Positions 1 through 62,059 of a stretch of 64,000 bases of DNA are shown piece by piece. The DNA lies in the NCBI RefSeq assembly GCF_019649055.1, contig NW_026570338.1:1-64000 (forward strand), read 5' to 3'. The notes below the pieces were generated by a model, which saw only the letters and a program-made list of their open reading frames with translations, was not told the origin of the DNA and ran no database searches. The DNA is from Paramacrobiotus metropolitanus. Lineage: Eukaryota > Tardigrada > Eutardigrada > Parachela > Macrobiotidae. Position numbers and translations under genes: made by a program. Position 1 is the stretch's first letter. Each line of letters starts with the position of its first letter.

Positions 1-76
1 GACTTCGGTCTTACTTAACGACCCGGAATGCCGACAAATCTGGAATTACTGAACGCAATCCGGAACAGGATACGGA

Positions 77-1408
77 ATGCTCAGAACCGAGCTAACCTGT
101 ATCCACAGCTTGCCCAGAACTTTGACGCATGAACGTCGGTCAGAAGCTGTACAAATGCCCACATTGGCAGAGGTACAGGCCGCTATCCGAACGGGAGATC
201 GAATCCTCGACGAAGTGAGGATGACGCAAGGCGGAGACTTGATCGCCGTAACCAACAGAGCAGCATTGGTAAACGACCTTTACCGAAGTTTACGGATCGC
301 CCGCAGACTTGCCGAACAGGACGGCGGCATAACCACAGATGATCAGGCCATTCGACTAAACATGCACTACCGGAGGATTCGACAGATAATCCAGAGCCAA
401 ACAGGAGGAGCCGGACAACAGGTTCCCCAGCCCCGGTATCATGCGATGGCATTTCAGATCGGACAGGATGATCAGACGACAGAAGTCTGGAAAACCATCC
501 TTGACGGCAAAGACGCTCTCCAAGGAATCTACGGACGTATAGCTGACGGAATCCGGGATTCTACCGAACTAGATCCAGTTCGGAAAATTAATGATCTCAT
601 AGCCCACATAGGACTAACTGAAGATCTTACTCGGTATGGTTTGCCCACCACAGAGGTGGACAAACACCGACTCCGAACAGTTATGGATCAGGTGAAGACG
701 GCTATCTCGGCGGAGAAACTTCCGTCCTTACTGACGGATAACGTCCAACCGACGACGTTACTACCGGGAGCCGTTATGACTTCACCGATATCATCGCCTC
801 CGCCGACGACCACACAGGTCGTAACGGCGAAATCTCCATCATCCGACCGGATAATCCTCTACGGCGGATCCGCTATACAGGAGGCGGAAGACATCCTTAA
901 ACGGATTCAGCAACGCGCCGAAAGAGGACTTGAGCCGAACGTGCAGAGGATAACTTCCGAGTTCGCCACTCACATACAACTTGTGAGGAACCTGATACAA
1001 CCAGGCACGGTCGAACCGGGAGTTCATTTCCAATTCGTAATGAACGGCATAAACCAGCTGCGGGAATATAGCCGAAGCCAGCGCCGACCAGAGTCACGGG
1101 GTCAACACCGACCACCGGACTCCGACACGGAAACCTCGGACGCATTACCGTCGACCTCATCGGCGGCGGAGACGCACTCGGCAATGCGGAAAAGCCGCAG
1201 AGAAAAGATGTCCTCCATAATCAGCGATGGATGGGACTTACTGGAAGACCTCCAGCGAACGTTCGTACAAAATACGCCAACGGACGGCGAAACTCTGAGA
1301 GTGGCACGGCAGAAGATGAACGACTTGACAGCCTACTTGAAAAAGGCAGACGACTTACCCTGCAAGAAGAACCGACCGAAGTCGACGAACGACAACTTAG
1401 GTCGGTAG
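77..1408 (+). CDS. Unidentified helical/disordered protein, first open frame of GC-rich block
   Basis: This is an open frame of 443 codons. Its ATG at 77 follows an in-frame stop at about 50; an ATG at 154 (MPTLAEVQ) is an alternative start. No family was recognised. The product is mostly predicted helix with Pro/Ser-rich linkers. Segments such as the one near residues 150-190 and the one ending MNDLTAYLKKADD look like one recurring amphipathic helical-hairpin module, which appears again in the next two frames. The frame ends at TAG 1406-1408. The overlapping frame 1 (to 1506) carries a better helical continuation, DERQLRSVVERITEIL, so the coding frame probably shifts near the A5 run at 1340-1344 or the CCC at 1358. 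It is the first of a same-strand chain with very similar word usage. Coding status is likely; function is unknown. Confidence 0.55.
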   Translation: MLRTELTCIHSLPRTLTHERRSEAVQMPTLAEVQAAIRTGDRILDEVRMTQGGDLIAVTNRAALVNDLYRSLRIARRLAEQDGGITTDDQAIRLNMHYRRIRQIIQSQTGGAGQQVPQPRYHAMAFQIGQDDQTTEVWKTILDGKDALQGIYGRIADGIRDSTELDPVRKINDLIAHIGLTEDLTRYGLPTTEVDKHRLRTVMDQVKTAISAEKLPSLLTDNVQPTTLLPGAVMTSPISSPPPTTTQVVTAKSPSSDRIILYGGSAIQEAEDILKRIQQRAERGLEPNVQRITSEFATHIQLVRNLIQPGTVEPGVHFQFVMNGINQLREYSRSQRRPESRGQHRPPDSDTETSDALPSTSSAAETHSAMRKSRREKMSSIISDGWDLLEDLQRTFVQNTPTDGETLRVARQKMNDLTAYLKKADDLPCKKNRPKSTNDNLGR

Positions 1409-1559
1409 TTGAGCGGATCACAGAGATCCTCAACGCGGAACCCGAGTACACTCGGATCGCCACGCCGTCGCCACTCGCCGAGCAGCACCGACTACGACAG
1501 CGGTGATGACTCTAGTCGGCACGACACCAATGGAAAACTTGCCGGTAACTTGGACATAA

Positions 1560-3512
1560 TTACAAGCCGGACAGGATTTAGCCGACATCTTTCACCACCG
1601 ACTTAGTGGAACCCTAACGGAACAAGAGGAAACCGACCTCACCCGGATCGACCGAGCACTACGACTCGAGTTGGATTGGGCCGATACTCTAGGCTCATGG
1701 GGAATTCCACCGCCGGGTCCGAACCGGGACCGGCTAATTGAAGCACTTCAGTCGGTGATTGACCATGTCAAACAGTACTTGGCAAACCCGAACAAAGCGG
1801 GAGCGCCAGTACCAGCTCGTGAGAAAATACCCTCTCCAGTCCCATCACCTGGACTTGACGTCGAACTTCCATTCGCCGAGGCAGCCGAACCAAAGGCAGT
1901 CGACATCGGTGAAGTTGAGAACCAGTACCGAGAAGCGGTCGACGTCATGGAGAAGCTCGGAAGACAACTCCGAGAACTCGACCCGAATAACGCCATGGAG
2001 AAGCAAATGCGCGACGCCTTGGACCAGCAGTATAGCATCTGCTCAAGGCGGGTCGAAGATTTATGGAAAATTTTGGAGGCTAACCCACAAAGGGTCCAGC
2101 CGACCTCTAGTCAGCCGCAGCCGACTGCTTCGCAACAACCGCTCGAGCCCACATTGGCAGAAAAGCGCGAAGTCCTCAACGACAAGTTGGCTCGTACACA
2201 AAGGATTGCCGATAGCTTGCAACGCCAAGTCGACAACATGGACGGAACAGATCCGACCATCCGTAACATCCGGACGGCAATCGAAGACCAAATAAGAGTC
2301 TCTCAGATGCACATTCAGGACGTGCAAACCGAACTCGAAATCTTACGGCGAAAGGAACTCGAGGAACAACGGAAAGCGGAACAACACGCACCCGGTTCGC
2401 AACAGCCGAACACCTCGAGTCAGCCGACTTCGACAACAGCTCGGATTCAACCTCAGCCGACCTCAACAGCAGGCTTGGCCCAACCGAAACCGATGGAAAT
2501 GGCCGATCGGCCCATGTCTCCGGCCACGGAAGCCCGAATCATGGAAGCCATACCGGACACGGACGAACTGCCGAGTACGGTCGCGCCACATATAGTCAAA
2601 CTATTGGCTAGAGTAGCGGAACTCATCACAGAGATGAGGGCCCGCAGAAACTTCTGCGTCGACAACAGCCAAGAAGCGAACGACTTGGATCGAGACATCT
2701 TGGCGTGGGGAAACAATGCCCGGTTCATACGACGACTTTGTCATCCGGACGCCCCACAAACGATGAGGACTCGACAACACTTAATCCGAACGACCTCATG
2801 GTTGGAAACAAGGGTAAACGAGTACGAGGAAGAGAAGGAACGGGACAAAGAACAGGAATCGACCAACCTGGCAACAAACGCCATGACTGAAGGTCGACCG
2901 TCTCGGACCACAAAGATCCAGTCGGCTCGGAAACCGAGTTTCGATTCTGTCCGACTTCCACCTCCAGCCCCACCAGCCAAACCCGACCTTGAATGGGTAA
3001 AAGCAGTTAACACACAGTTACTGCGAGCGGACGCTGTCATCGTCGAACTTCGAAAGATGATGGACGAGACCGACCAACGGAGTCCGCAATACTGTCAGAT
3101 CGATATCAATCTCGGACACTTGGAGAACAACGCCAAGGAAGCCCGATTTATCCTCCGACCAACAACAGTGTGGTCGGTAAAGAATCAGGAACGGCTGCAA
3201 ACCCTGACGGCCATGATTCAGTCCTTCGTAGACGACTTCTACAAGCGGAAGGAAGCGGAAGCGCAACGTAAGCCGAAGAGGCCGCCCTCCGCTAAAAAGC
3301 CAAAGGTACAACCTGTCAAACCGACACAGGTAGTCCCACCGGCGAGTCACCAAGACGAGCCGATGGACGAAGTACCGGTACCTGGACTTGAAGGCGAGGA
3401 TGAACCGATGGATACTTCGGAGGAAGTCGGAACAACAGAAGTAGCCCGACCTAAACCTTTTGGAACGACCTACAACTTTACCTGGGCTCTCACAAAGAGA
3501 ACCGCAGAGTGA
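1560..3512 (+). CDS. Unidentified repeated helical-module protein, second open frame
   Basis: Frame 3 is open from just after a TAA at 1557-1559 to TGA/TAG at 3512. The first ATG-like start is unclear, which suggests the frame continues an upstream one. No known family was recognised. At least four copies of a roughly 45-residue helical-hairpin module can be seen, for example around MEKLGRQLRELDPNN, KLARTQRIADSLQRQ, VAELITEMRARRN and LRADAVIVELRKMMDE. They are separated by Gln/Pro/Ser/Thr-rich linkers. The C-terminus is Lys/Pro-rich and then acidic. The overlap with the next frame (3460-3512), beside TTTT at 3458-3461, suggests a +1 change of frame rather than two genes. The modules and linkers would suit a structural or scaffold protein, but that is inference. 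Confidence 0.55.
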   Translation, partial: LQAGQDLADIFHHRLSGTLTEQEETDLTRIDRALRLELDWADTLGSWGIPPPGPNRDRLIEALQSVIDHVKQYLANPNKAGAPVPAREKIPSPVPSPGLDVELPFAEAAEPKAVDIGEVENQYREAVDVMEKLGRQLRELDPNNAMEKQMRDALDQQYSICSRRVEDLWKILEANPQRVQPTSSQPQPTASQQPLEPTLAEKREVLNDKLARTQRIADSLQRQVDNMDGTDPTIRNIRTAIEDQIRVSQMHIQDVQTELEILRRKELEEQRKAEQHAPGSQQPNTSSQPTSTTARIQPQPTSTAGLAQPKPMEMADRPMSPATEARIMEAIPDTDELPSTVAPHIVKLLARVAELITEMRARRNFCVDNSQEANDLDRDILAWGNNARFIRRLCHPDAPQTMRTRQHLIRTTSWLETRVNEYEEEKERDKEQESTNLATNAMTEGRPSRTTKIQSARKPSFDSVRLPPPAPPAKPDLEWVKAVNTQLLRADAVIVELRKMMDETDQRSPQYCQIDINLGHLENNAKEARFILRPTTVWSVKNQERLQTLTAMIQSFVDDFYKRKEAEAQRKPKRPPSAKKPKVQPVKPTQVVPPASHQDEPMDEVPVPGLEGEDEPMDTSEEVGTTEVARPKPFGTTYNFTWALTKRTAE

Positions 3513-4938
3513 ACGAACACCCGACGGTCGACTCGTTCTCCAACCTGGCGGATCAAACTCACCGAAATTCGCTAGGAAGCCGAAACTGACGGACAACATT
3601 GAAGAGCACGGTCCACGCAGGCGTCTCTTCCCGTCAAAGTCGCCATCACCAGTCAGGACCAAGGAACGACTCTTGGAAATCCTGAAGGCGACTCCGTCTT
3701 CTCTACCACCGGCTGAAGAGAAGCCGAGCCCGTCACGGAAAGTGATGGGAGCGAAGGCCTTATTCACTCCCGGCATCCACAAGAAGTTGGTCAGCCAAGC
3801 CAAAACATTGGATCTTCAACGGATACTTTACGAAGCACAACTTCAAGGAGGTATCCGAGATCGGACCATGACGGACGAGCAACAGACTCAGACGGCCCAG
3901 AAGATTCATGCTACGATCCAGGATAGGGACAAAGTCCTGCGACGGTTGGTGACTCTAAGATGCGGAAAGCAGGAGTTACGACAACTCCCGCTGGACTCTA
4001 ACATGATCCAGACGATCCAACGTCTCCGTAATCCGAGCATCAACCCGGGCGCCTACACACTGGAGATTCAACCTCGGCCCGGAGAAGAGGTAACCGAGAA
4101 GATTCCGATAACAATGTCGGATAGTAGTGAAGATGAGGAGAACGCGGACGACGTTGACTCCGATGACTCCATTCAACGGAAGGCAGAGGCACCACCGAAG
4201 GGATCCACGCCGAAACGAGGCAGATCGCCGGTAAAACAAATTTCGCCGACCCGATCAGCATCCCAGCCGACTAAGCTGCCGAGTCAACCGATAGTGGAGA
4301 AACCACTTAGGTTTACACCACGGAATACTCCGACGAAACCGAAGAAAACCGAAGACGCGATGGACACAACATCCCCTTCGGAAGCGCGAGTCGAAACGAC
4401 GGTCGAAACGTCACCACAAAGGGACGAACCGACCTCGATACACTCCGGCCCACGTCTAACAATTGACGAGTCTCGAACGAACGAGTCGGCAAAGGAATCG
4501 GTAAACATACCGACCAAACGGAGTACGGCTAAGGAAAAACCACCGCAGGACTCATCGCGCGAATTCCATGATGACCCAGCCTTACAACATGTGAAGGACC
4601 TGACAAGGTCGGAACAGGATGCCTGCATCGACATGGCATATCCGGAGGATAGGGAACTCTGGCACTCGTTGAGAATCCGACGTGCCAGCATACTCGGAAA
4701 CACCACGGAAGCTCGGCGCGACCACGACCGGCTTACCGAGAAGATGGCCGACGTTATGAAACGTATGGGAGAACATTACCGAGCGGAAAAGAGTCGACCT
4801 AAAGCCCTACAAGCGGCTACGCCGACTCGACATAAAGTCACCGCCCCGGAACCCAAGTCGACCAAGAAGACGGCACAGCAACCCGTCAAGATGAAAGTCC
4901 CCTCCAACCAGACAACCTTCCGTCCAGATCAACGATGA
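3460..4938 (+). CDS. Unidentified charged disordered protein, third open frame
   Basis: Frame 1 is open for about 490 codons and overlaps the end of the preceding frame by 50 bases. There is no convincing ATG at its beginning. It contains basic Pro/Ser/Thr-rich linkers, an acidic DSSEDEENADD stretch near residue 225, and a helical module near residues 375-450 (around LTRSEQDACIDMAYP). It ends at TGA 4936-4938, but frame 2 continues with a lysine-rich sequence of the same style. CCCC at 4899-4902 lies exactly where the frame would have to change. No domain was recognised. I read it as an internal piece of one long ancestral reading frame. Confidence 0.5.
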   Translation: MERPTTLPGLSQREPQSERTPDGRLVLQPGGSNSPKFARKPKLTDNIEEHGPRRRLFPSKSPSPVRTKERLLEILKATPSSLPPAEEKPSPSRKVMGAKALFTPGIHKKLVSQAKTLDLQRILYEAQLQGGIRDRTMTDEQQTQTAQKIHATIQDRDKVLRRLVTLRCGKQELRQLPLDSNMIQTIQRLRNPSINPGAYTLEIQPRPGEEVTEKIPITMSDSSEDEENADDVDSDDSIQRKAEAPPKGSTPKRGRSPVKQISPTRSASQPTKLPSQPIVEKPLRFTPRNTPTKPKKTEDAMDTTSPSEARVETTVETSPQRDEPTSIHSGPRLTIDESRTNESAKESVNIPTKRSTAKEKPPQDSSREFHDDPALQHVKDLTRSEQDACIDMAYPEDRELWHSLRIRRASILGNTTEARRDHDRLTEKMADVMKRMGEHYRAEKSRPKALQAATPTRHKVTAPEPKSTKKTAQQPVKMKVPSNQTTFRPDQR

Positions 4939-5206
4939 TCTGGACACACGGGTCATCAACTCGGCCAATTCCGCGAAATCCCACAAGGATAAACGGAAGG
5001 CCAAGAAGGAAGCAGCGAAACAATCCGCTAAGCCGCAACCGACGGAAACCCAGAAGAAACCAGTAAAGCCGGAGGCCAAAGAGACGACCAAACCGAAGTC
5101 GGACTCTACGGTGAAGACGCCGAAGCCTAACCCGGCCAAGCGGCATAAGTCATCCGATGATCTGGATATTTCGATGCCGGCCCACAAAGGACCGAGCAGA
5201 AGGAAA
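4922..5206 (+). CDS. Lysine-rich bridging segment in a third frame
   Basis: Between the stop of the previous frame and the start of the next long frame, only frame 2 is open without interruption. It encodes a very Lys/Pro/Thr-rich basic tail (for example KDKRKAKKEAAKQSAKPQP) that resembles its neighbours in composition and word usage. It has no start codon of its own in a sensible place. It joins the previous frame near CCCC 4899-4902 and the next frame near AAAA 5204-5207. The best explanation is that it is part of one long coding sequence broken by single-base length changes. An independent small gene is unlikely. Confidence 0.4.
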
Positions 5207-5235
5207 AGGCTCAACAACCGCACGACAAGGATGCG

Positions 5236-7662
5236 GTGGAGCGTAAATTTAGAGAAGTCATGGAGCGAACCGGCACAAAGCCGGCTAAGACTTCAGGAGG
5301 TCGGCTACGGAACCCACCAAAACCGCCGACTCCGACCGAACAACCCCAGCCCTCCACATCCAAGCAACAGTCTGATGTGGAATCCGACCAGATCTCGGAC
5401 ATTGAAGAAAAGGACTCAATCTCCGACCATGGAGAAGGTGATCCCTATGAAGGATTCAAAGGCGACCTGAAAGAAATGTTCGACCATGGAGCGGACACTG
5501 ACGAATCACAGTGGCCAGCCCCAGACGATGTACGCGAACGCCTTCCGGACGAACAGCCGGATGACCCGGTCGATACATTAATCCGTACCGTCCGAGTACA
5601 CGTCGAAGTCGTCAGGAGCATCGAAAACGCCAGGAAAAACGGCGTGGACATTTACCAGTCCTTGGTCCGAGACCTGTCCAATAACATCCAAGTCGGAGGC
5701 GAAACCGGAAAATGGTTGACGCATCAACTCATGATGCAGATCGTCGCCTGGACTTTGGATTTCGGATTAGCAGTAGCCGTTCACCGACAATGGGGACGGA
5801 TGGCCGAACTGCTTCCACCGGACCTCATCAAAGCACTTAAAAGTGCAGCCGCAAGAAATGCGGACGACACACCGACTAGAATTGCACGGTGCATCGGATA
5901 CAGTAGGAATCCCCGCGGATCAACGTTGGTCCAAATCGCCCGTGTATATAACGTGATGTACATGGACAAGAAGGGGAACATCGACGAAATCATCACGAAT
6001 AGGATAAGCGACCGGATTACGTCCTTGGTCGAACAACACACTCTTCAGACGACTAACGCGGAACGCGACGTACCTGTACGGTACACCGTGCCTAACTTCA
6101 TACCGGAACAACATCGGCGTGAGTTTAACCTCCGGATGTCTTATGTCAACACGGACAAGCCTCCGGCCGGCACGGAACCTATCGAAGAATATAGTGACTC
6201 CAACGAACAACCGTCGGAGGATGCAGCCGCCTTGCTGCATATAGCTCGTACGGCTGGACAGTCGTCACAAAGACGAGTCCAAGTCTTACCCCGACCTCGA
6301 GCACCCCATGAACCGACAACATATGTCGGCACGGCAGCAGCTCCAGGGGGACGAGCAAGTACGGCAAAACCGACTCGAAGCGCGAAAGGACGGTTCATTC
6401 CGAGGGACGTACAATCACTCCCGCCGTCCTCGCCCATGGAAATTTCCCCGGAACCGGAAGACTTGACCCAACAGAAAGGAAAGTCAAAGTCGACCAAGAC
6501 GAAGTCGACTAAGCCGGCCAAGAAAAAGGAGCCGAAGTCATCGGAACCGACCTCGTCATCCGAGGAAGAAACCGAGGATGATGACGACGACGACGATTTC
6601 CAAACACCTGGGAACGGATCGCCGAAAGACGATGACGATGACGACGACGAAAATGGTAAACCACCACCACCGTCGAACCCGGCACCCCAACAGCAGGGCG
6701 AACCGGAGATACCGGATAGACAACCGGAGGAGAAGGACGGCAGCGACAAAGCTGAAGAATCCAAAGGAAATGAAGACGATGGTGGAGTGTATATCCCTCG
6801 TCAGTACGGTAAACGGATACCGATAACCCCTGATACTGACGAGCGGCCACTTCTCTCCGAATGGAACGAAGACACCATGGAAGTGTTGCCGGACGACATC
6901 CCTCCGTTGACCAACGTTAGGGTCAAGTATACGGGAATTAAATCGGCTTCAAAACCGAAGCCGAGTGTATCGGAATACGATGCGGGATGGATGTACACAT
7001 TCGCCGCCCTGAAGGCCTTGGCTACCCGTGGACCGAAATTTGCCACACCAAGAATCGCCTTCAAACTCCTCCAACATTGGAAGGTAGACGAGACGGGCGA
7101 CTGGCGACAACTGAGCCAGAATAATGTGCGACATTACTGCGACCTGGGATACCATGCCGGGAAGATAATACGTACGTACACCAGCACAAAGCGGATGTAC
7201 TACGAGTTCCCACCGGCTAAAAAGGATCCGGCCCCTTCAACATATGAAGGATGGACACACGCCATCGAAGCGTGCATGGAAATGTCCTGGCATCCCGATG
7301 GACTTACCCGTGGAGAAATACTCCACCAACTTACAGCACGGTTTGAGTTCGAGTGGACAGCAGTAGAACCGCAGTTGGTCGACCCTAAATACAAGGCCAA
7401 ACCGGACGTAATCGCCGGACGCAAGAAGTATTCCCTGGAAGACGAATTAGAATTCGTCCTATCGAAGGCACTCTACCAACAAAGATTTGCCACGGACACC
7501 GATAAAGCCCAGGGCGGCCAACGGTTCATCGCCTTAAATCCATCAACTCACCGGCACGGACACTTACCGAAGGAACGATCCACCTCGGCACAACCAACCG
7601 AGCTGACCGACTCGCACCAAGCAAGTCGGCCGGAGCCGACAGAAGCACCTACACGGGAGTGA
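5236..7662 (+). CDS. Large protein with acidic tract and two winged-helix-like segments
   Basis: This is an open frame of about 808 codons; frame 1 is open back to 4993, and the GTG at 5236 is not a credible start. Order of parts: Pro/Ser-rich N-terminus; an all-helical part at about residues 105-210; a disordered basic and acidic middle with long Asp runs near 450-480; then two compact segments. The first (about 584-665) has three helices and a basic wing with QNNVRHY and a following KRMYYEF, resembling forkhead-type winged helices (helix 3 of that family reads like QNSIRHN). The second (about 671-768) has the same helix pattern. This suggests nucleic-acid binding, by pattern only. The C-terminus is Thr/Glu/Pro-rich. 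It is the most domain-like protein of the GC-rich block. Confidence 0.6.
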   Translation: MERKFREVMERTGTKPAKTSGGRLRNPPKPPTPTEQPQPSTSKQQSDVESDQISDIEEKDSISDHGEGDPYEGFKGDLKEMFDHGADTDESQWPAPDDVRERLPDEQPDDPVDTLIRTVRVHVEVVRSIENARKNGVDIYQSLVRDLSNNIQVGGETGKWLTHQLMMQIVAWTLDFGLAVAVHRQWGRMAELLPPDLIKALKSAAARNADDTPTRIARCIGYSRNPRGSTLVQIARVYNVMYMDKKGNIDEIITNRISDRITSLVEQHTLQTTNAERDVPVRYTVPNFIPEQHRREFNLRMSYVNTDKPPAGTEPIEEYSDSNEQPSEDAAALLHIARTAGQSSQRRVQVLPRPRAPHEPTTYVGTAAAPGGRASTAKPTRSAKGRFIPRDVQSLPPSSPMEISPEPEDLTQQKGKSKSTKTKSTKPAKKKEPKSSEPTSSSEEETEDDDDDDDFQTPGNGSPKDDDDDDDENGKPPPPSNPAPQQQGEPEIPDRQPEEKDGSDKAEESKGNEDDGGVYIPRQYGKRIPITPDTDERPLLSEWNEDTMEVLPDDIPPLTNVRVKYTGIKSASKPKPSVSEYDAGWMYTFAALKALATRGPKFATPRIAFKLLQHWKVDETGDWRQLSQNNVRHYCDLGYHAGKIIRTYTSTKRMYYEFPPAKKDPAPSTYEGWTHAIEACMEMSWHPDGLTRGEILHQLTARFEFEWTAVEPQLVDPKYKAKPDVIAGRKKYSLEDELEFVLSKALYQQRFATDTDKAQGGQRFIALNPSTHRHGHLPKERSTSAQPTELTDSHQASRPEPTEAPTRE

Positions 7663-7878
7663 GGGAACGCAGAACGCGTTGGAGGAGAGGCATAACCGAC
7701 CTCCCTCCAGTGACACCACATAGGCGTCACCGACCAACAGAAGTCGATTTACCTCATTAGACGACCACAAAGGCGTCTTGGACCAGTTCGAGGACCGACT
7801 TGGCCCGACCGTAGTAACTATAGGGTGTAAATTATAGGATGCAACCGAGAAACGGTTTGCTTACTTTTGTTTTGACAG
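7663..7878 (+). other. Spacer with hairpins and a 3' splice-like signal
   Basis: No open frame. It holds several short hairpins with loops of the CCACA-type, for example GTGAC..GTCAC at 7710-7730 and AGACG..CGTCT at 7760-7780. It ends with a pyrimidine-rich tract followed by GACAG at 7874-7878, which looks like a splice acceptor directly before the next open frame. GTGAGG at 7659 would serve as a donor, but its phase does not match the downstream frame, so an intron here is unproven. Confidence 0.35.
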
Positions 7879-8832
7879 AACCGAACGGAAGCTTACACGG
7901 TGGACTGCCAACAGTGCAGGGATAACGCGACGAGGGACAACAACAGATTGCCTTGCGCGCAATGTATCGTATCCTTCACGAACGAACGAGTTACCGGCAC
8001 AGGACCACAACACCGAGCTCAGGCGGCGGCACTTTACATTAATGTTGTCGCTGGTAACTTGAGCGCATATCGGTACCTGGCCGGCAGAGAATACCTTGTC
8101 GACCAACTAGAGTCGCATGAACAGGATAACCTGGCTACACTCCAGCGGCAACGAACCCGCGACCCGAGATGGGAAGGAACCCGACCACCAGTCTTAACGG
8201 ACAGACTGTGGGAGTATCGCCAGCTGCAAGACGCTAACCGTCAATTGGAGGACCAAAGGAAGATCAGAGAGGTCGACAAACGAATTGCCTCGATGAAGGT
8301 CCATCCACCACCGACCGACTATGAACCAGAAATAAAAATTCGGTTACCGGCACCCACACAGGGTCGCTCGGATAGCGAACAGCTGATCCACGACGTGCGC
8401 GACGTCTTCGTCGGAGACCCACACCGACCATTGACGAGTGCATCGGTAACAATGATAATGAACATGCCGGACGGAACCCAACAACCGGTTACCTTTACAC
8501 CGGCATCTCAGGAACAGTTGATGGCAATCCCACATAGGGCAACGCCAGTAGTCACACAGGCTCGTCCAACTGTTTCCCAGCAGATTCCCCAACACGGAAC
8601 CCATGGAACTCGGACTCAACCGGCAACTCAACAGCAGCAGCGCCGACCGAGCAAAAACTTAGCGGGACACGACCTCCGACACAGGATTGGTCCTGTTGAT
8701 CTTCGGGACAGAATCGAAGAACAACGTGCAGTCATTCGACAAGTCGGAAAAGAGCCGACCAGACCTCCACCGGGAAAACGGACTGGATCTGGAGAAACGG
8801 GAATCGGACTTACGGTAGACTTAACAAATTAG
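7879..8832 (+). CDS. Protein with N-terminal CxxC pair, frame closed by TAG
   Basis: Frame 1 is open from a splice-like acceptor (…GACAG|AAC) to TAG 8830-8832; no ATG lies near the start. The N-terminus has two CxxC pairs (DCQQC and PCAQC, spacing C-x2-C-x13-C-x2-C), so a small zinc-binding knuckle is plausible. A helical part with heptad-like charged residues (about residues 60-140) and a Gln/Pro/Thr-rich disordered tail follow. The same frame remains open beyond the TAG for another 412 codons, so this and the next entry are probably one protein interrupted by a nonsense change or by stop readthrough. No known family was recognised. Confidence 0.5.
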   Translation, partial: NRTEAYTVDCQQCRDNATRDNNRLPCAQCIVSFTNERVTGTGPQHRAQAAALYINVVAGNLSAYRYLAGREYLVDQLESHEQDNLATLQRQRTRDPRWEGTRPPVLTDRLWEYRQLQDANRQLEDQRKIREVDKRIASMKVHPPPTDYEPEIKIRLPAPTQGRSDSEQLIHDVRDVFVGDPHRPLTSASVTMIMNMPDGTQQPVTFTPASQEQLMAIPHRATPVVTQARPTVSQQIPQHGTHGTRTQPATQQQQRRPSKNLAGHDLRHRIGPVDLRDRIEEQRAVIRQVGKEPTRPPPGKRTGSGETGIGLTVDLTN

Positions 8833-10068
8833 TCGAAACGTAACTTTGTCCCACCCGAACAGCAGCCGGAAGCCCATCAGGCGGAACCGGCGGCTGAAGT
8901 CCTAGCTGAACTGGCAGCCCAACCGGAACAAATGGACGTCGAAGTAGCCGACCAGATGGCGCAACTACCACAAGTAGAAGTGCCGATCCGAGAAGACCCT
9001 CGCTACGACCGCGCTCGACAACAAGGAATCGAGGTCGTCATGCTACATCCCACCGAACGGACAAACCACATTATGAACGTCATGAATTACGAGGAACGGA
9101 ATCGACCACAAGTTTGGCGCATGGTAGAAAACCTTCGTCAATTCCTCGTCCGATCTGGATACCAGACGTTACTGGAACAACATCAGTGGCAACCGGACTT
9201 CAACATGTCTGCGCACACAGCACAGAATGTTGAACATCCGTACACCAGATCGAATGCGTTACCGTCGATGACCGACCCGGTCTTGCTGAACGTACCACTT
9301 TATAGTCCGGACGGAACGCGTGCAAGCCAACTAGGAGCTCGGGAATACCCCCACGACGAGATGGAAAGTATTGCCCAGTTCGTCATCACGGACGCCCACC
9401 CAGCCTTTGTAATAACCGCGGCTCGGGCAGCACTGGACTTGACTCAGTACCTCCCAGAAGGGGAAGTTGACATGGCCCAGGACGGAGTCACCGCATTCCT
9501 GCGATTCATCTTCGCAGCTCGGCTCGGCAATTACTTTTGCCACTACACCCTGTACGGCCTATACCAGAACGAGATGATACCAGCGGCTGTGGAGACCCTC
9601 GTAGCCCAACTTGGCACACCAATGAGAAGTGTTATCCTCGCCGTCTGGATGCGCGACTTGCTGTACACCCACGAACGGTATGCGACAAAGTATGCCTTTC
9701 GTGAGGATCACATAGATCCCAGCGACGACGCGACCAGATTTATCAGCTGGTACCGACAAAAGAAGACTTTGCCCAGCGGATTCAACTCATCGCCCTACGA
9801 ACCTTGGATGGCGGACGACATAGCACCCGGCGCACGACCGTATGCGCTGCGGCTCCGCAAACAGGCGGCCAGGGAATCGAGGAAAGGCAGAGCGGATCGC
9901 CTCGGCCAAGAAACGGATGAGACTGACGAGATGTCTCAACGGAGTGGCCCGGCGACTTGTAAACCCAAGGATCCGACTATCCGGCCACATAACCGACCTG
10001 GCCCGGATGATGAAGATGAAGATGATTACTTCGGCGGCGACAAACCCGTCGAAGTCCCACTCAGTTAA
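8833..10068 (+). CDS. Continuation after in-frame TAG, globular protein of unknown family
   Basis: The frame is identical to that of the preceding entry and directly follows its TAG. The first ATG is at 8932. The central part (residues about 60-290 from that ATG) looks globular: aromatic-rich helices with FICHYTLYG-like hydrophobic stretches (NYFCHYTLYGLYQNEM), RSVILAVWMRDLLY and a WYRQKKTLPSGF motif. The C-terminus is acidic (DDEDEDDYFGGD). No family was recognised; it could be a capsid- or nucleoprotein-like product, but nothing in the sequence proves this. It is the last long frame of the GC-rich block; non-coding repeats follow. Confidence 0.5.
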   Translation, partial: SKRNFVPPEQQPEAHQAEPAAEVLAELAAQPEQMDVEVADQMAQLPQVEVPIREDPRYDRARQQGIEVVMLHPTERTNHIMNVMNYEERNRPQVWRMVENLRQFLVRSGYQTLLEQHQWQPDFNMSAHTAQNVEHPYTRSNALPSMTDPVLLNVPLYSPDGTRASQLGAREYPHDEMESIAQFVITDAHPAFVITAARAALDLTQYLPEGEVDMAQDGVTAFLRFIFAARLGNYFCHYTLYGLYQNEMIPAAVETLVAQLGTPMRSVILAVWMRDLLYTHERYATKYAFREDHIDPSDDATRFISWYRQKKTLPSGFNSSPYEPWMADDIAPGARPYALRLRKQAARESRKGRADRLGQETDETDEMSQRSGPATCKPKDPTIRPHNRPGPDDEDEDDYFGGDKPVEVPLS

Positions 10069-15438: not shown

Positions 15439-15689
15439 ACTCTGTGCTCAGATTACTCCAGATTTTGTCGTAGATATGCCAGGTTGCGGTGATAATTCAA
15501 CCGGGGGCTTTTGTCTATCCTTTGCCGGAGTTTCCCGACACTACCTTCACCAAGCAGCAGTGTGAGTGGCAGTTTTCAGCACACTGCAACGACTCCTGGG
15601 TCCACTTTAATCATAACTGAAGAAATGATCGTCCGTTTTACACCGTACGCTGTCCAAGCACCGCGGCAACATCCGAAGAGCTCTCGTTC

Positions 15690-16238
15690 ATGTTTAACCG
15701 TCTGTCGCAGCCACCAGTTCGTTATACTGCTGTCGCGGTTTGCGATTCGCTTCACATCACTTCCTCCATGTTTCATCCCATCCGCACCCAGATCCTGGTG
15801 TTCTTCCTCACCTTTGCTCAGACCGAGCGCACGACCGGAAAACTGCGAGGGGCGGCTTTGACCAACCTCCTGGGTTTTACCGTCATCGGCTCCCGCGTAC
15901 AGCTAATAATTAAGAGAAACGACTTTACGACGTCGCCAAAACTGCGGCAGATCTACTTCTGTGACTGCTCTTTCCAGTCCATCGACGCTGATAGCTTCTT
16001 CTGTCTGGTTGATTTACGCATTCTGGCGTTGGATGTCGGTGCAACGGCGGCTGATGCTGCCCGCCTCCAGACTGACCCGGTTTTTGCCGGTTTCCGAGAT
16101 TGGTTCTCCACGCGCACTTACTTGCGGCAGCCTCGCGAACCCGGGAGCGTCTATATAATTGGACCTTACTTGCACAACTGGGCATTTCCCGTACCAGAAG
16201 CCAATGGCCTTGATCTACTCTCCTTCCAGTGCGAATAA
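15690..16238 (+). CDS. Leucine-rich-repeat-like protein
   Basis: An ATG-started frame of 182 codons. It has a Cys-containing N-terminal part, then leucine-rich units with IGSRVQLIIKRNDF and LRQIYFCDCSFQSIDADSF, which resemble LRR strands and an LRR-type asparagine ladder. The C-terminus has a Phe/Trp-rich cap with paired cysteines. Frame 3 upstream (from about 15490) also has cysteine-rich coding-like sequence but contains a TGA near 15617, so the true N-terminus may be broken or lie in another exon. A clearly decayed relative sits at 24930-25175, showing this is a duplicated family. Probably secreted or extracellular; ligand unknown. Confidence 0.5.
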   Translation: MFNRLSQPPVRYTAVAVCDSLHITSSMFHPIRTQILVFFLTFAQTERTTGKLRGAALTNLLGFTVIGSRVQLIIKRNDFTTSPKLRQIYFCDCSFQSIDADSFFCLVDLRILALDVGATAADAARLQTDPVFAGFRDWFSTRTYLRQPREPGSVYIIGPYLHNWAFPVPEANGLDLLSFQCE

Positions 16239-16534: not shown

Positions 16535-18810
16535 TTACTGCTGACGATCCAAGGAAGCGCCATTCATCATCATAGTTTCCAAAAGCGTCAAATAATTCGC
16601 ATTAAAGTGATTGTACGCGTCGTCCAAAAGAAGGTATGTCTCGGCGGAATCATGGTCAACCACAACTCGCAGAGCATGGGTTAGTTGAGTAAAATTGGTA
16701 CGGTCATCCGGTGAGAATTCCCAGCATCGCGACATCAAACTGTATCTGCCAGAGAACGTGTGATTAATGGCTACTGCATGGGCATGCTTGATCGGTTTTC
16801 CCACCATAAACCTTTTCGAACTCGGAGTGTGCTTTGTACAGCAAGGTTAAAATCTCAAAACAAACGGCACTTACATGGAAATAGGACAGAACGTCGGCCG
16901 CTCCAAACGTAATCCGTTTTTCAGGGACATCACAAATTCGGAGATGGGCTGGCGCATAATGTCGCTCCCACCATATGGAAGTTTACCCAGACTGAACGTT
17001 TCCCACATCACCACACCAAATGACCATACATCCGATTTGTGGGAAAATATCCTGTGAGTGATGGCTTCGGGCGGCATCCAACGCACTGGTAACGCCTCCT
17101 GTGGTTGAAATTTCTGTGTCATTCCTTGATTTCCGAGCACACTACTGAACGCTATCGCTCGACTTATACATGGAGTACTAGCAGTGAAATAAATTTACTG
17201 TCCGTTTATACGGTTTTGAAGACTTGTAATGATTGATTCTAACGAAGTTTTAGACGTAAACATCGTACTTTGTGATGTAGCAGCCCAATAAAAGACCGGC
17301 AAATTTGCTGGCCTTTGGATCAAACGGAACGTCTCTGGTACCGGCTTGTGCCATTCCGAAATCAGCAATTTTTACCACGTTTCGATCACAAATCAGGATA
17401 TTACGGGCTGCGAGATCCTTGTGGATGATGGATTTTGTGCCGAGATACTCCATACCGCGGCTAATTTGGTATACACAACTGAGCAGAGATTTTGAGGATA
17501 GACACGGTGGATAGAGTCCATGCTCCTCCGGATCGCCAGCATGCAGCAGTCGCTCGATGCGTTCGGCTTTGGCCTCGTTGTATGGCAGGATGTCTCCGTT
17601 CTCATCAGTGTGATTGTAGAAATGCTCCGGGTTGTACAACTGCAGATAGCTCAGTAAAGATCCATACTGTGCGTACTCCAGCAACAACGCCACTTCACCT
17701 TTTTAAAGCGGAGCACTGAAGTGCTGTGTGAGTACCAATAAGTGCACTTCGCTTTTTCTCATATTCCGGTCACTTTAACTATACAGTTTCATATTCCGGT
17801 CACCAGGTAGAAAAATGACCTAACAGAACAAAATTCACAGAAATTGTTAGTTTTCATAAAAACGACCTCTCATTAAATTTGAACCGTACACATGGCAAAA
17901 TAAAAAGTAAGTTATGCGATCAGCAGCTATTCATGTAGTGCTCAACATGTGCCGTCGTACCAGTGACCGGAATTTGAAACCATTCACTCAAGGTGACCGG
18001 AATATGAGAAACAGCGAAGTTCAAGACGAACAGGATTATTGCTGTATTACCTTTTGTTACAACTCCCAATAAATTCACAATGTTCAAATCGCGACCGGTG
18101 TGCGTCATGATTTTTAACTCCTGGATTAGTTGACGAACTTGACCGTTGTCATGTTTTCTTCTCGCTCTTTTAATAGCAACATCCACTTTACTGGGATTGC
18201 CGTAAACGCCGTCGACGGTGCCTTTCCATACTATACCGGTCGCTCCTTTGCCAAGAAGCGTATTTGCTGTAAAGACTCATTCTTACCTCCAGATAATGCA
18301 TTGTAGCCTCCCGCACACCTTGAACCACAAAGGGTAACCAGCAAACAGGCAGCGTGTATGCCCGTGCATTTTACACGCACCGCAACGCGTACCGATTTCC
18401 CGCCCAGAAACTCTGTGATTCTTGGTGTGTGAGCAGTTACAGTATTTGCTGTAACTGGCTGTTACAATGTTAAGGCGGTTTTTCTTGATTCTTACAGATA
18501 GTCAATTTGGCCAGAGGAATCTCCAGGAGCTTAACATGGCCATGCAGCGTCGGATCATTCAGAATGAAATCAGCGTGAACGGAGGACAAATCATATAGTG
18601 GCAAAGATTTTACCAGCGAATGCGGACGCCAGCGAGCCTTGCGTATAGTCCTCTGTCCCAGATGCTGCTTCTCGTGACGCAACCAGCATAGTGCCGCTAA
18701 TGCGATCATGGCATTAATCGGAATCAGAGTTCCCAAAGTAGCCGGCAACGCGATTTTGATGCCGGTAGTATCCAAGAGCAAAGACGAGGTTGCATTAAGA
18801 CTGTCGACAC
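16535..18810 (-). CDS. Receptor tyrosine kinase, transmembrane and kinase exons
   Basis: Five minus-strand exons with matching phases: 18810-18496 (TM helix around residues GTLIPINAMIALAALCWL, then basic juxtamembrane), 18266-18051, 17698-17297, 17151-16875 and 16745-16535 ending in TAA. Catalytic motifs are intact: glycine loop GKGATGIVWKG, VAIK lysine, HKDLAARN catalytic loop, DFG, PPE, DVWSFGVVMWE, and the C-lobe pair CPIS|IYSLMSRCW across the last splice. HKDLAARN and LPVRW mark it as tyrosine-type. A kinase insert of about 45 residues lies after LLSYLQ. The activation segment has no tyrosine, unlike the paired tyrosines usual in this group. The exon 8 donor (GTCTTT at 17296, or GTACCA at 17341) and the exon 9 acceptor are the least certain. 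The upstream exons are in the next entry. Confidence 0.9.
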
Positions 18811-19005
18811 CTAAAACAATACTCGTACGGATTTATATAGTTTTAGCTTTTGTCGATAACTTTAAACTTATGTCAAAAAATATATGAAGTTATTGCTATA
18901 CCTAAATATGGTAGTACCGAATCTGTCTGATATGAGGTCTTGTTACAGTTCGCCATTTGCACAAAACAAAGTAAGGCTTATGTTTCCAAGTACACCTTGG
19001 CTCAC

Positions 19006-20268
19006 CAGTCGTCGAATTTACTGCTAACCAGGCTATACTGTTTGCGCTAGTCTGCAACGGTTTGCTGGCTTCATTGCGGAAGGCCCGTGGATTCTGTACT
19101 GTTGGTCCTGGAGTGACCGGAGCTGTCGAAGGCGCTTGCGAACGTACGGATAAGGGCGTATCTAAGAGAAGCGCCGAATATCACCCCCCGCGGCACCATA
19201 AAACTTTAATTACTCTGTAAACGGAAATATTTCGAATTATTTTGTACAAATACAATACCCGGCCCGTAAAGAAGGACGCTGCCGCTACACCACAGTTATA
19301 TCGCTTTTGGATTCGCTCAACATCCAGAGGGCTTAAATTATCTTCTTGCTTTAACCGTCTTCCCTTGGGTTTCGGAATTATTGTTGGCATACTCGGGTCA
19401 ATGGCAAAAAGCATTGAACACGAAATGCGTAATTGAGTCATAATCGTATGGCAGCGCGTAGGTTTCCATTCCTCTACGTATAAAGAAGCTTTCGTTTCCT
19501 AAATATAGCAAACAAGGTTACTCATTTGTAATGTTCCACATTTTCGGGAGCAGTCGTGCTTCGAATTCCTTATTATAAACCGTTAGTCTCTCCCACTAAC
19601 ACAGTAAAACTAGTAACACTACCGTTAGTCAGGTTATTCCCACTTCCCTTTAGATTTCTCCTAATACAGGCATAAAATGCTCCCTTTACCGTGCGGGATA
19701 ATATTGCTCCATATGATTTCGATATGCTCATCCCGATCGGGCCTCTGGTGTTCATGATAAAAGCCCAGAGTGTGCATGAGTGCATGTTGCACGCTTCCAT
19801 AACGGTGCAGACACGCTCTCTACACTGATAAGAGCAGCGCCCCGCCCTTTCGTCCTACTTGAGTTAGGCAACTAAGAACAACAGATTGCGAGTATGGAAG
19901 ATTCCGGAAAAGTAAGGTATGAGGCAGACAACGTTTTCCTTACCCTGTAGGGATTATAAAAAGATAGTCTGATTCAGTTGTGCGTTCCACAAACTTAACA
20001 CAATTTCCGGTCATACGGCTGATAATTTGCATGGATTCCAGCACTCGATCCCTGTTCGCCGTGTCTGAGAATTTGACAGCAGACACTGATGAATCCCCAT
20101 TAAGACAACCATCAACCAAATCTTACCTTGGAGATAATCGACGCCAAAAGTGTATGGAATGGTGTTATTAGGCCAAAGCGTGTGGTCTTCTGCCTCCTGC
20201 AAGGATCCAGTTATCAGTATAACCGGACAAATCGCGGCGAAGAAAATTATCGTGGTGTATAGGGGCAT
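19006..20268 (-). pseudogene. Signal peptide, astacin-like domain and stalk joined in phase to the kinase
   Basis: Exons 20268-20127 (signal peptide, then WPNNTIPYTF), 20064-19944 (RTTESDYLFI), 19871-19690 (GCLTQVGRKGG, then HALMHTLGFYH), 19498-19291 (YDYDSITHF, then LSPLDVERIQKRYNC) and 19161-19006 (Ser/Thr/Pro stalk) spell an M12A astacin domain in order. The three zinc histidines remain. The catalytic Glu of HExxH is Ala (codon 19783-19781), and the Met-turn SIMHY is SITHF. An in-frame TAG (19822-19820) and an extra base in an A5/T5 run (19406-19410) break the frame; allowing for both, every junction phase fits through to the TM exon. An alternative acceptor just past the TAG also keeps phase. 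It is either a decayed ectodomain or one with assembly errors; it is proteolytically dead either way. Confidence 0.75.
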
Positions 20269-60467: not shown

Positions 60468-62059
60468 CTAAAACTGCATAGGGCGTTGCTGTCCTTGACT
60501 TTGTTGCCCTTGCTGTCCTTGTCCCTGACCTTGCTGGCCACCTTGTTGGGGAGGTCCTTGCTGACCGCCTTGCTGTCCTTGTTGACCACCTTGTTGGGGA
60601 GGTCCTTGCTGACCGCCTTGCTGTCCTTGTTGACCACCTTGTTGGGGAGGTCCTTGCTGACCGCCTTGCTGTCCTTGTTGACCACCTTGTTGGGGAGGTC
60701 CTTGCTGACCGCCTTGCTGTCCTTGTTGACCACCTTGTTGGGGAGGTCCTTGTTGACCGCCTTGTTGACCACCTTGTTGGGGAGGTCCTTGCTGACCGCC
60801 TTGCTGTCCTTGTTGACCACCTTGTTGGGGAGGTCCTTGCTGACCGCCTTGCTGTCCTTGTTGACCACCTTGTTGGGGAGGTCCTTGTTGACCGCCTTGT
60901 TGACCACCTTGTTGGGGAGGTCCTTGCTGACCGCCTTGCTGTCCTTGTTGACCACCTTGTTGGGGAGGTCCTTGCTGACCGCCTTGCTGTCCTTGTTGAC
61001 CACCTTGTTGGGGAGGTCCTTGTTGACCGCCTTGCTGTCCTTGTTGACCACCTTGTTGGGGAGGTCCTTGCTGACCGCCTTGCTGTCCTTGTTGACCACC
61101 TTGTTGGGGAGGTCCTTGCTGACCGCCTTGCTGTCCTTGTTGACCACCTTGTTGGGGAGGTCCTTGTTGACCGCCTTGTTGACCACCTTGTTGGGGAGGT
61201 CCTTGCTGACCGCCTTGCTGTCCTTGTTGACCACCTTGTTGGGGAGGTCCTTGCTGACCGCCTTGCTGTCCTTGTTGACCACCTTGTTGGGGAGGTCCTT
61301 GTTGACCGCCTTGTTGACCACCTTGTTGACCGCCTTGTTGGGGAGGTCCTTGTTGACCGCCTTGTTGGGGAGGTCCTTGTTGACCACCTTGTTGTTGGCC
61401 ACCTTGTTGTTGACCACCTTGTTGAGGTGGTCCTTGTTGTTGCTGTTGGCCGCCTTGTTGGGGAGGCCCTTGTTGTTGCTGTTGACCGCCGTATTGCTGA
61501 CCGCCTTGTTGGGGAGGTCCGTATTGGCTACCTTGTTGACCGCCTTGCTGTCCTTGGCCGAATTGTTGTTGGGGAGGTCCTTGTTGGCCTTGTTGACCAC
61601 CTTGACCGAACTGTTGCTGGGGAGGTCCTTGTTGGCCTTGTTGACCACCTTGGCCGAACTGCTGTTGGGGAAATCCTTGTTGGCTTTGTTGACCACCTTG
61701 GCCGTATTGTTGTTGAGGAGGTCCTTGCTGACCGCCTTGTTGGCCTTGTTGACCACCTTGGCCAAATTGTTGACCACCTTGGCCAAATTGTTGACCGCCT
61801 TGCTGACCACCAGGGCCCCCTGGCGGGGGAGGTCCAAACCCGAACGGAAGGGCATTCATCACGGCAACAAGACCTAGAAAGTTCGATTAGCATCTTCTTA
61901 ACCCTTTAATACTCGTACATGAAGCAGCCAGTTTTTAGTATACTCGTAGAAGTACAGTTTTTAGGTGCGATATATACAGTATATAAATAATAGTACGAGT
62001 ACAGTGTACTACTATACTGACTTACCGGCCGCGGCCAGGAAGACAAGGGCTGACTTCAT
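60468..62059 (-). CDS. Secreted protein with long 16-residue Gln/Gly/Pro repeat
   Basis: Exon 1 (62059-62026, 34 nt) encodes MKSALVFLAAA and ends at CCG|GTAAG. Exon 2 (61873-60468) follows TTTCTAG in phase 1 and gives 479 residues. After the signal peptide (…AGLVAVMNA) the protein is almost only Q, G and P. The N-terminal third has units with QFGQGGQQGQQGPPQQ; then comes a highly regular GGQQGPPQQGGQQGQQ array with a 48-bp DNA unit and some shortened units. There are no cysteines or globular domain. Near-identical DNA units imply ongoing repeat-number change. It is a paralog of 37332-37692 with shared exon 1 and upstream sequence. Likely extracellular, elastic or adhesive, by composition only. 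Long frames in the antisense and a second minus frame are by-products of the repeat. Confidence 0.8.
60480..61420. repeat. 48-bp tandem repeat (coding)
   Basis: The plus-strand unit has GGTCCTTGCTGACCGCCTTG, CTGTCCTTGTTGACCACC and TTGTTGGGGA in order. There are roughly 15-20 units, some 9 or 12 bp shorter. Units are nearly identical, with C/T variation in CTTG(C/T)TGACC. Confidence 0.9.

Follow-up and report, generated by a model that had tools for sequence, protein, structure and literature searches.

Membrane-anchored astacins and receptor tyrosine kinases are the described systems that come closest to the locus considered here. Meprin beta is a membrane-anchored astacin that carries MAM, TRAF and EGF modules and is not known to have a kinase, and a review of astacin structure gives many partner domains for the fold without the word "kinase" appearing in its main text. 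Receptor tyrosine kinases of the FGFR/VEGFR/PDGFR class have ectodomains made of Ig domains. The window, by which is meant the whole 64,000-nucleotide stretch of Paramacrobiotus metropolitanus DNA that was analysed, contains a locus that most likely represents a decaying copy of a single-pass receptor tyrosine kinase gene, one of a five-member clade in which an astacin head has replaced a GH16 head and serves to bind ligand. That the exons are joined in a single message, and that the receptor binds a ligand, dimerises and signals, are all inferences. The four other members lie on contigs C139 (C139a, or L001, and C139b, or L002), C111 (L003) and C89 (L005).

On the minus strand of the window, between 20268 and 16535, ten exons follow one another in the order signal peptide, astacin domain, stalk, transmembrane (TM) helix and tyrosine kinase, an arrangement already claimed in the preliminary description and upheld here by both sequence and Pfam. 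Exon 1 (20127–20268) supplies the start codon, the signal peptide and the beginning of the astacin domain, with no propeptide as modelled, and ends in phase 1 at the donor gtaaga. The astacin domain continues through exon 2 (19944–20064), which is entered in phase 1 and left in phase 2, the same as in L001, L003 and L005, and through exon 3 (19690–19871; 182 nt, equal in the same three loci), which bears the zinc motif HALMHTLGFYHE and an in-frame TAG, and it ends in exon 4 (19264–19498), which carries a frameshift and whose 3' end was placed by comparison with the sister copies. A Ser/Thr/Pro stalk is encoded by exon 5 (19006–19161, phase 1-1), and the TM helix and juxtamembrane part by exon 6 (18496–18810), for which 58–65% identical exons exist in L001, L002 and L003. 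The kinase follows in exons 7 (18051–18266; N lobe, with LGKGATGIV and VAIK), 8 (17313–17698; kinase insert, catalytic loop IHKDLAARN and DFG), 9 (16875–17098; C lobe) and 10 (16535–16745; end of the C lobe, tail and stop codon). When the astacin part is read through, with an X at the stop, it matches Pfam Astacin with 148 bits over positions 2–188 of 189; the kinase matches the Pfam tyrosine kinase model in two parts, with 134 and 106 bits, and its catalytic loop has HKD in place of HRD. In the zinc motif the catalytic Glu is replaced by Ala, and the Met-turn reads SITHF, with Met changed to Thr and Tyr to Phe.

Several other features of the window were seen in passing. Repeated "ccggtcac" motifs at 17700–18010, in the intron that separates kinase exon 7 from exon 8, are possibly a small mobile element. 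Directly downstream of the locus, on the opposite strand, an ORF at 15621–16238 (+) looks by eye like the LRR-like part that follows multi-exon astacins (LRQIYFCDCSFQSIDADSFFCLVDLRILALDVG); a Pfam search with this ORF gave no match. Long ORFs of up to 833 aa, all on one strand, run in series through 53–10065 (+) and may belong to a large mobile element or a repetitive gene, and a long repetitive Gln/Gly-rich ORF of 472 aa lies at 60471–61886 (-).

The window copy itself looks damaged. The TAG (19822–19820) and the frameshift, in a T5 run at 19410–19406, are both in the assembly, and sequencing error is not excluded for either. Two donors read GC where sister copies have GT: one at 19263–19262, matching the place at which exon 4 ends in the sister copies, and the other at 17312–17311, after kinase exon 8, where GT is present in all four sister copies. 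Taken with the loss of the catalytic Glu, these lesions make it likely that the copy is degenerate and that its astacin part is dead, as the preliminary description had suspected from the stop and the frameshift. GC donors can function, and the kinase half may therefore still be expressible. Against the other copies, dN/dS of the window copy in astacin exons 2–3 is still low (0.12–0.21), so that the decay must be recent or, in part, an assembly error. The claimed phase 1/1 junction between astacin and stalk held, although the donor first assigned to it, at 19290, is probably wrong: exon 4 extends about 27 nt past that point in C111, C139a and C139b, ending in C111 and C139a with VAAASYFTG followed by gt, still in phase 1.

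Is the order of exons at such a locus an accident? The 169.8 Mb genome (533 contigs) was queried exon by exon. Kinase exon 8 has its nearest relatives at C139:293162 (-), C139:308329 (+) and C111:254301 (+), which are 73–80% identical, the next being at 55%. The same two C139 places and the C111 place are nearest to the TM exon (60–65%), followed by C89 at 38%, and they are also nearest to astacin exon 3 (61–66%, with all other rows except the window's own at or below 56%). At the C89 locus, astacin exons 2, 3 and 4 (43–46% identical) lie directly upstream of the TM exon. There are thus five loci, on four contigs, at which astacin, TM and kinase exons come in one order, and a search with the C89 astacin revealed none beyond these five among the 150 of 303 candidates that were scored, judged by eye. 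The stalk exon is less constant: L001 has a 47% identical exon, L005 has a 66-nt phase 1-1 Ser/Thr exon in the same place, and no counterpart was found in L002 or L003. Chance adjacency is ruled out because four other loci share the order, and an assembly chimera or a set of alleles is ruled out by the four contigs together with a dS of 0.63–1.90 across the six close-clade pairs.

Of the four other loci, L001, L003 and L005 were modelled manually as genes, C139b being left out. The C111 model (684 aa) and the C89 model (728 aa) are without stops, and all their introns are GT-AG; the intron phases, 1,2,1,1,(1),1,1,0,2, agree between the two. Both proteins exceed the Pfam cut-offs for astacin (PF01400; 168 bits in L003, 111 in L005) and for the kinase (245 and 247 bits), and apart from astacin neither of them matches any ectodomain family. 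Their kinase motifs (Gly loop, Lys, HRDxAARN and DFG) are complete. By hydropathy only, each has a signal peptide and one further TM-like run, besides a weaker run inside the kinase fold. The frame of C139a is open apart from two stops in exon 1 that result from a short tandem duplication. C139b has deletions in exon 4, including a frameshift, its last exon appears damaged, and its astacin and TM exons are 4.6 kb apart. Two of the five copies (C111 and C89) are therefore free of visible lesions, and since these exist, the odd combination of astacin and kinase is probably real. The receptor reading proposed in the preliminary description accordingly has the support of intact sister genes that agree in exon order and phases, without any transcript.

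Selection has acted on both halves. In the six close-clade pairs, dN/dS is 0.09–0.24 for astacin exons 2–3, 0.23–0.35 for the TM exon and 0.10–0.13 for the kinase; for astacin exon 4 a single pair (L001–L003) gave 0.27. In comparisons against C89, synonymous change has reached saturation or is close to it. Astacin and kinase exons are thus both under purifying selection, and the low ratios in the two halves indicate that both were long kept as protein while linked. These values also bear on the possibility that the window copy is purely a pseudogene, that the whole clade is disappearing and that the architecture has no present function. The lesions in three of the five copies speak for this, but two copies are undamaged and dN/dS is far below 1 even in pairs that include broken copies, which points to recent decay or partial assembly error; a clade without function is thus an unlikely explanation.

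Another possibility is that each locus consists of two neighboring genes, one encoding a secreted astacin and the other a receptor kinase, which were copied together as one block but yield separate messages. In favor of this reading, exon 4 of C111, if left unspliced, would reach a stop a few codons past its donor and give a soluble astacin; there are no transcript data; and ATG-started exon candidates (at least 12 residues, with a phase-1 donor) occur in L003 (one, of 13 residues), L005 (one, of 33 residues, which continues into the stalk exon) and the window (two), L001 having none. These candidates, however, are unlike one another and none is strongly hydrophobic, and in the frame of TM exon 6 no Met occurs upstream before a stop in any of the four copies inspected (window, L001, L003, L005). 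The original claim was that the stalk and TM exons lack a start of their own; alternative starts belonging to the kinase remain a possibility that cannot be fully excluded. In C111, just 322 bp separate the phase-1 astacin donor from the phase-1 TM acceptor. No AATAAA is present in that interval or in the corresponding one of L005, although the latter has two copies of ATTAAA; L001 has AATAAA in its interval, and ATTAAA is found in those of L001 and the window. The phase-1 match has persisted in copies whose dS is about 1, and also at the C89 locus, which has diverged much further. There, the C-terminal Cys of the astacin domain runs directly into a Ser/Thr-rich stalk within exon 4, in a single open frame that ends at a phase-1 donor, to be followed by the phase 1-1 Ser/Thr exon and a TM exon entered in phase 1. 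The two-gene reading is very improbable on this evidence. The likely alternative, backed by exon order and phases in the undamaged sisters, is that one gene encodes a receptor in which an astacin ectodomain is joined to a tyrosine kinase, with the reservation that all junctions are predicted and transcript evidence is lacking.

What does the astacin head do? The nearest solved structure to it is astacin itself (1ast, 2.9e-33), and the C111 domain also matches the structure of meprin beta. The motif HExxHxxGxxHE is retained in three of the four sister copies, C139a, C139b and C111 (HELMHTLGFYHE). In C89 the frame is open and the motif reads RELMHVLGFYNE, with the catalytic Glu kept and two of the three zinc histidines lost. 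The preliminary description had read the zinc motif and Met-turn residues of the window copy correctly, and had inferred from the missing Glu a role in binding rather than cleaving. That inference fails for the family, the window copy being the only one of the five compared in which the Glu is gone; the idea does fit C89. The Met-turn consensus SxMHY is met by none of the copies examined (SITHF in the window, SVTHF in L001, SVTHY in L003, SGTHY in L002 and SVMQL in L005), the Met being Thr in all four close-clade copies, and the zinc Tyr is gone from the window copy and C139a. Four ectodomain cysteines of L003 fall at the positions of the two astacin disulfides. A propeptide with an aspartate switch is absent from the exon 1 models of L003, L005 and the window, and an upstream exon beyond the models is possible.

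A bifunctional variant, which is compatible with ligand binding, would have a C111-type head act as an active protease without a propeptide and cleave a substrate or a neighboring ectodomain so as to gate the kinase. The intact motif and the four cysteines of L003 agree with this, as does the low dN/dS of the astacin exons. On the other hand, the Met-turn substitution throughout the close clade, the loss of the zinc Tyr in two copies and of two zinc histidines in C89, and the absence of catalytic glutamates from the one GH16 sister head that was checked all argue against it, and we regard the variant as unlikely.

The GH16 heads belong to other members of the same TM/juxtamembrane-kinase family, which carry an ectodomain of the GH16 (laminarinase or beta-1,3-glucanase) type. 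PF00722 is above its cut-off in five of eight single-ORF ectodomains; those of C77, C72 and C98 have no Pfam match. A profile made from five family members finds C77, C72, C98 and C347 (2.5e-26 to 3.8e-11, Z 1000), and none of eight reversed sequences and neither of two astacin receptors passed the threshold. The C154 ectodomain (L011) matches the GH16 entry 4dfs with 2.1e-36 and the laminarinase 3azx with 4e-36. The catalytic motif of GH16 is EIDIME, and alignments to GH16 structures show no Glu at either catalytic place in L011, so that this head, the sole GH16 head checked, is probably catalytically dead, an inference from sequence alone. In 26 of 40 GH16 matches, representing 23 different kinase places, the strand of the match also bears an exon-8-like kinase exon no more than 3.5 kb further downstream; the same is true of only three of 85 astacin rows, all three being astacin-kinase loci already known. 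For this count, 85 of 150 listed astacin rows and 113 of 130 kinase rows were entered, and it misses C139b (5.6 kb off) and C89 (outside the listed astacin rows). The GH16-headed receptor tyrosine kinases (L004, L006–L016) form a large family that is arguably more striking than the astacin receptors.

When 16 kinases of the family (five astacin, 11 GH16-type) were placed in a tree with three outgroups, the damaged C7 kinase (L019) being omitted, the astacin receptors grouped as a single clade (support 78/82, and present in 74% of 200 bootstrap trees) inside a strongly supported group (100/99) that includes the GH16-type C77, C72, C98 and C347. Monophyly of all 11 GH16-type kinases is rejected (p-AU 0.011), with the caveat that the EGFR outgroup branch is long. 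Since the astacin clade is nested among GH16-type kinases, the head was most likely replaced by a swap of ectodomains. The tree of astacin domains puts the five receptors on one side of a branch, weakly (55/39) and with a long C89 branch; because support for the clade is moderate at best, one fusion event cannot be distinguished from two.

Where might the new head have come from? Multi-exon astacins with the same exon layout and no kinase row nearby occur on C281, C7 and C173. In C281, judged by eye, exon 4 has a phase-1 end, EGDILG in an exon upstream resembles a propeptide, and LRR-like exons follow. A secreted multi-exon astacin of this kind can be inferred to be a plausible source, through exon shuffling at phase-1 introns. 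As separate observations, LRR-like exons follow the astacin at both L028 (C281:44500–49000) and L029, and L030 is a further multi-exon astacin. The LRR_8 matches at L028 are weak and below cut-off, and as the LRR reading rests on these, astacin with LRR-like exons can be put forward only tentatively as another unusual domain combination.

The fused gene order with matching phases, the two open sister frames, the selection on both halves and the fact that some heads have a decayed catalytic site are shown; what they amount to in the living cell is inferred. In the proposed model, the ectodomain would be an M12A astacin domain on a Ser/Thr-rich stalk, for which a GH16 head was exchanged, probably via phase-1 introns, the likely donor having been a secreted astacin of several exons whose introns lie at the same positions. 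The enzyme fold would serve to bind a ligand: two receptors might be joined either by contact between their heads or by a peptide, matrix or cuticle component lodged in the astacin cleft, and the paired kinases would then phosphorylate each other's tails. A bolder reading is that this kinase family takes up secreted hydrolases as sensors and swaps them as modules, GH16 for astacin, and that metalloprotease activity may survive in at least one member, C111, combining cutting and tyrosine phosphorylation in one receptor. We consider this unlikely.

In the open-access literature searched (only the top entries where result lists were long), receptor kinases with an astacin or a GH16 head were nowhere described. 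As no general eukaryotic protein database was searched, automatic annotations may already contain the architecture. The astacin-headed receptors appear to be an undescribed architecture within a known kind, the receptor tyrosine kinases. If this is true, GH16 heads and astacin heads with intact or broken zinc sites sit on one kinase chassis, and the conversion of enzymes to receptors becomes directly testable. Gene predictions that separate "astacin" from "kinase" at such loci would conceal the receptor family.

Among known systems, receptors of the FGFR/VEGFR/PDGFR type provide the nearest solved structures to the kinase domain of the family, at about 180–196 bits; the EGFR entry 9p9u_A has a higher total score because the domain is present twice. 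A long insert between the kinase lobes is common to both. The tails read EHYLLL in C89 and ETYLLL in C111, C139a and the window, and that of C89 aligns with the FGFR1 tail QEYLDL, a PLC-gamma site, which would suggest an FGFR-like docking at the tail. The head of L003 and L005 differs from that class in being an astacin, no Ig domain having been found by Pfam in either protein, and the activation loop lacks a Tyr in all five copies as modelled. With the astacins of M12A the receptors share a complete Pfam domain; they differ in being joined to a TM segment and a tyrosine kinase, in the lack of a propeptide from exon 1 as modelled and in their altered Met-turn. Meprin beta has the membrane-anchored astacin in common with them, but joins it to MAM, TRAF and EGF modules instead of a kinase. 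The receptor kinases with GH16 heads that this genome also encodes share the TM/juxtamembrane-kinase family and differ in the head, which has the GH16 fold instead of that of astacin.
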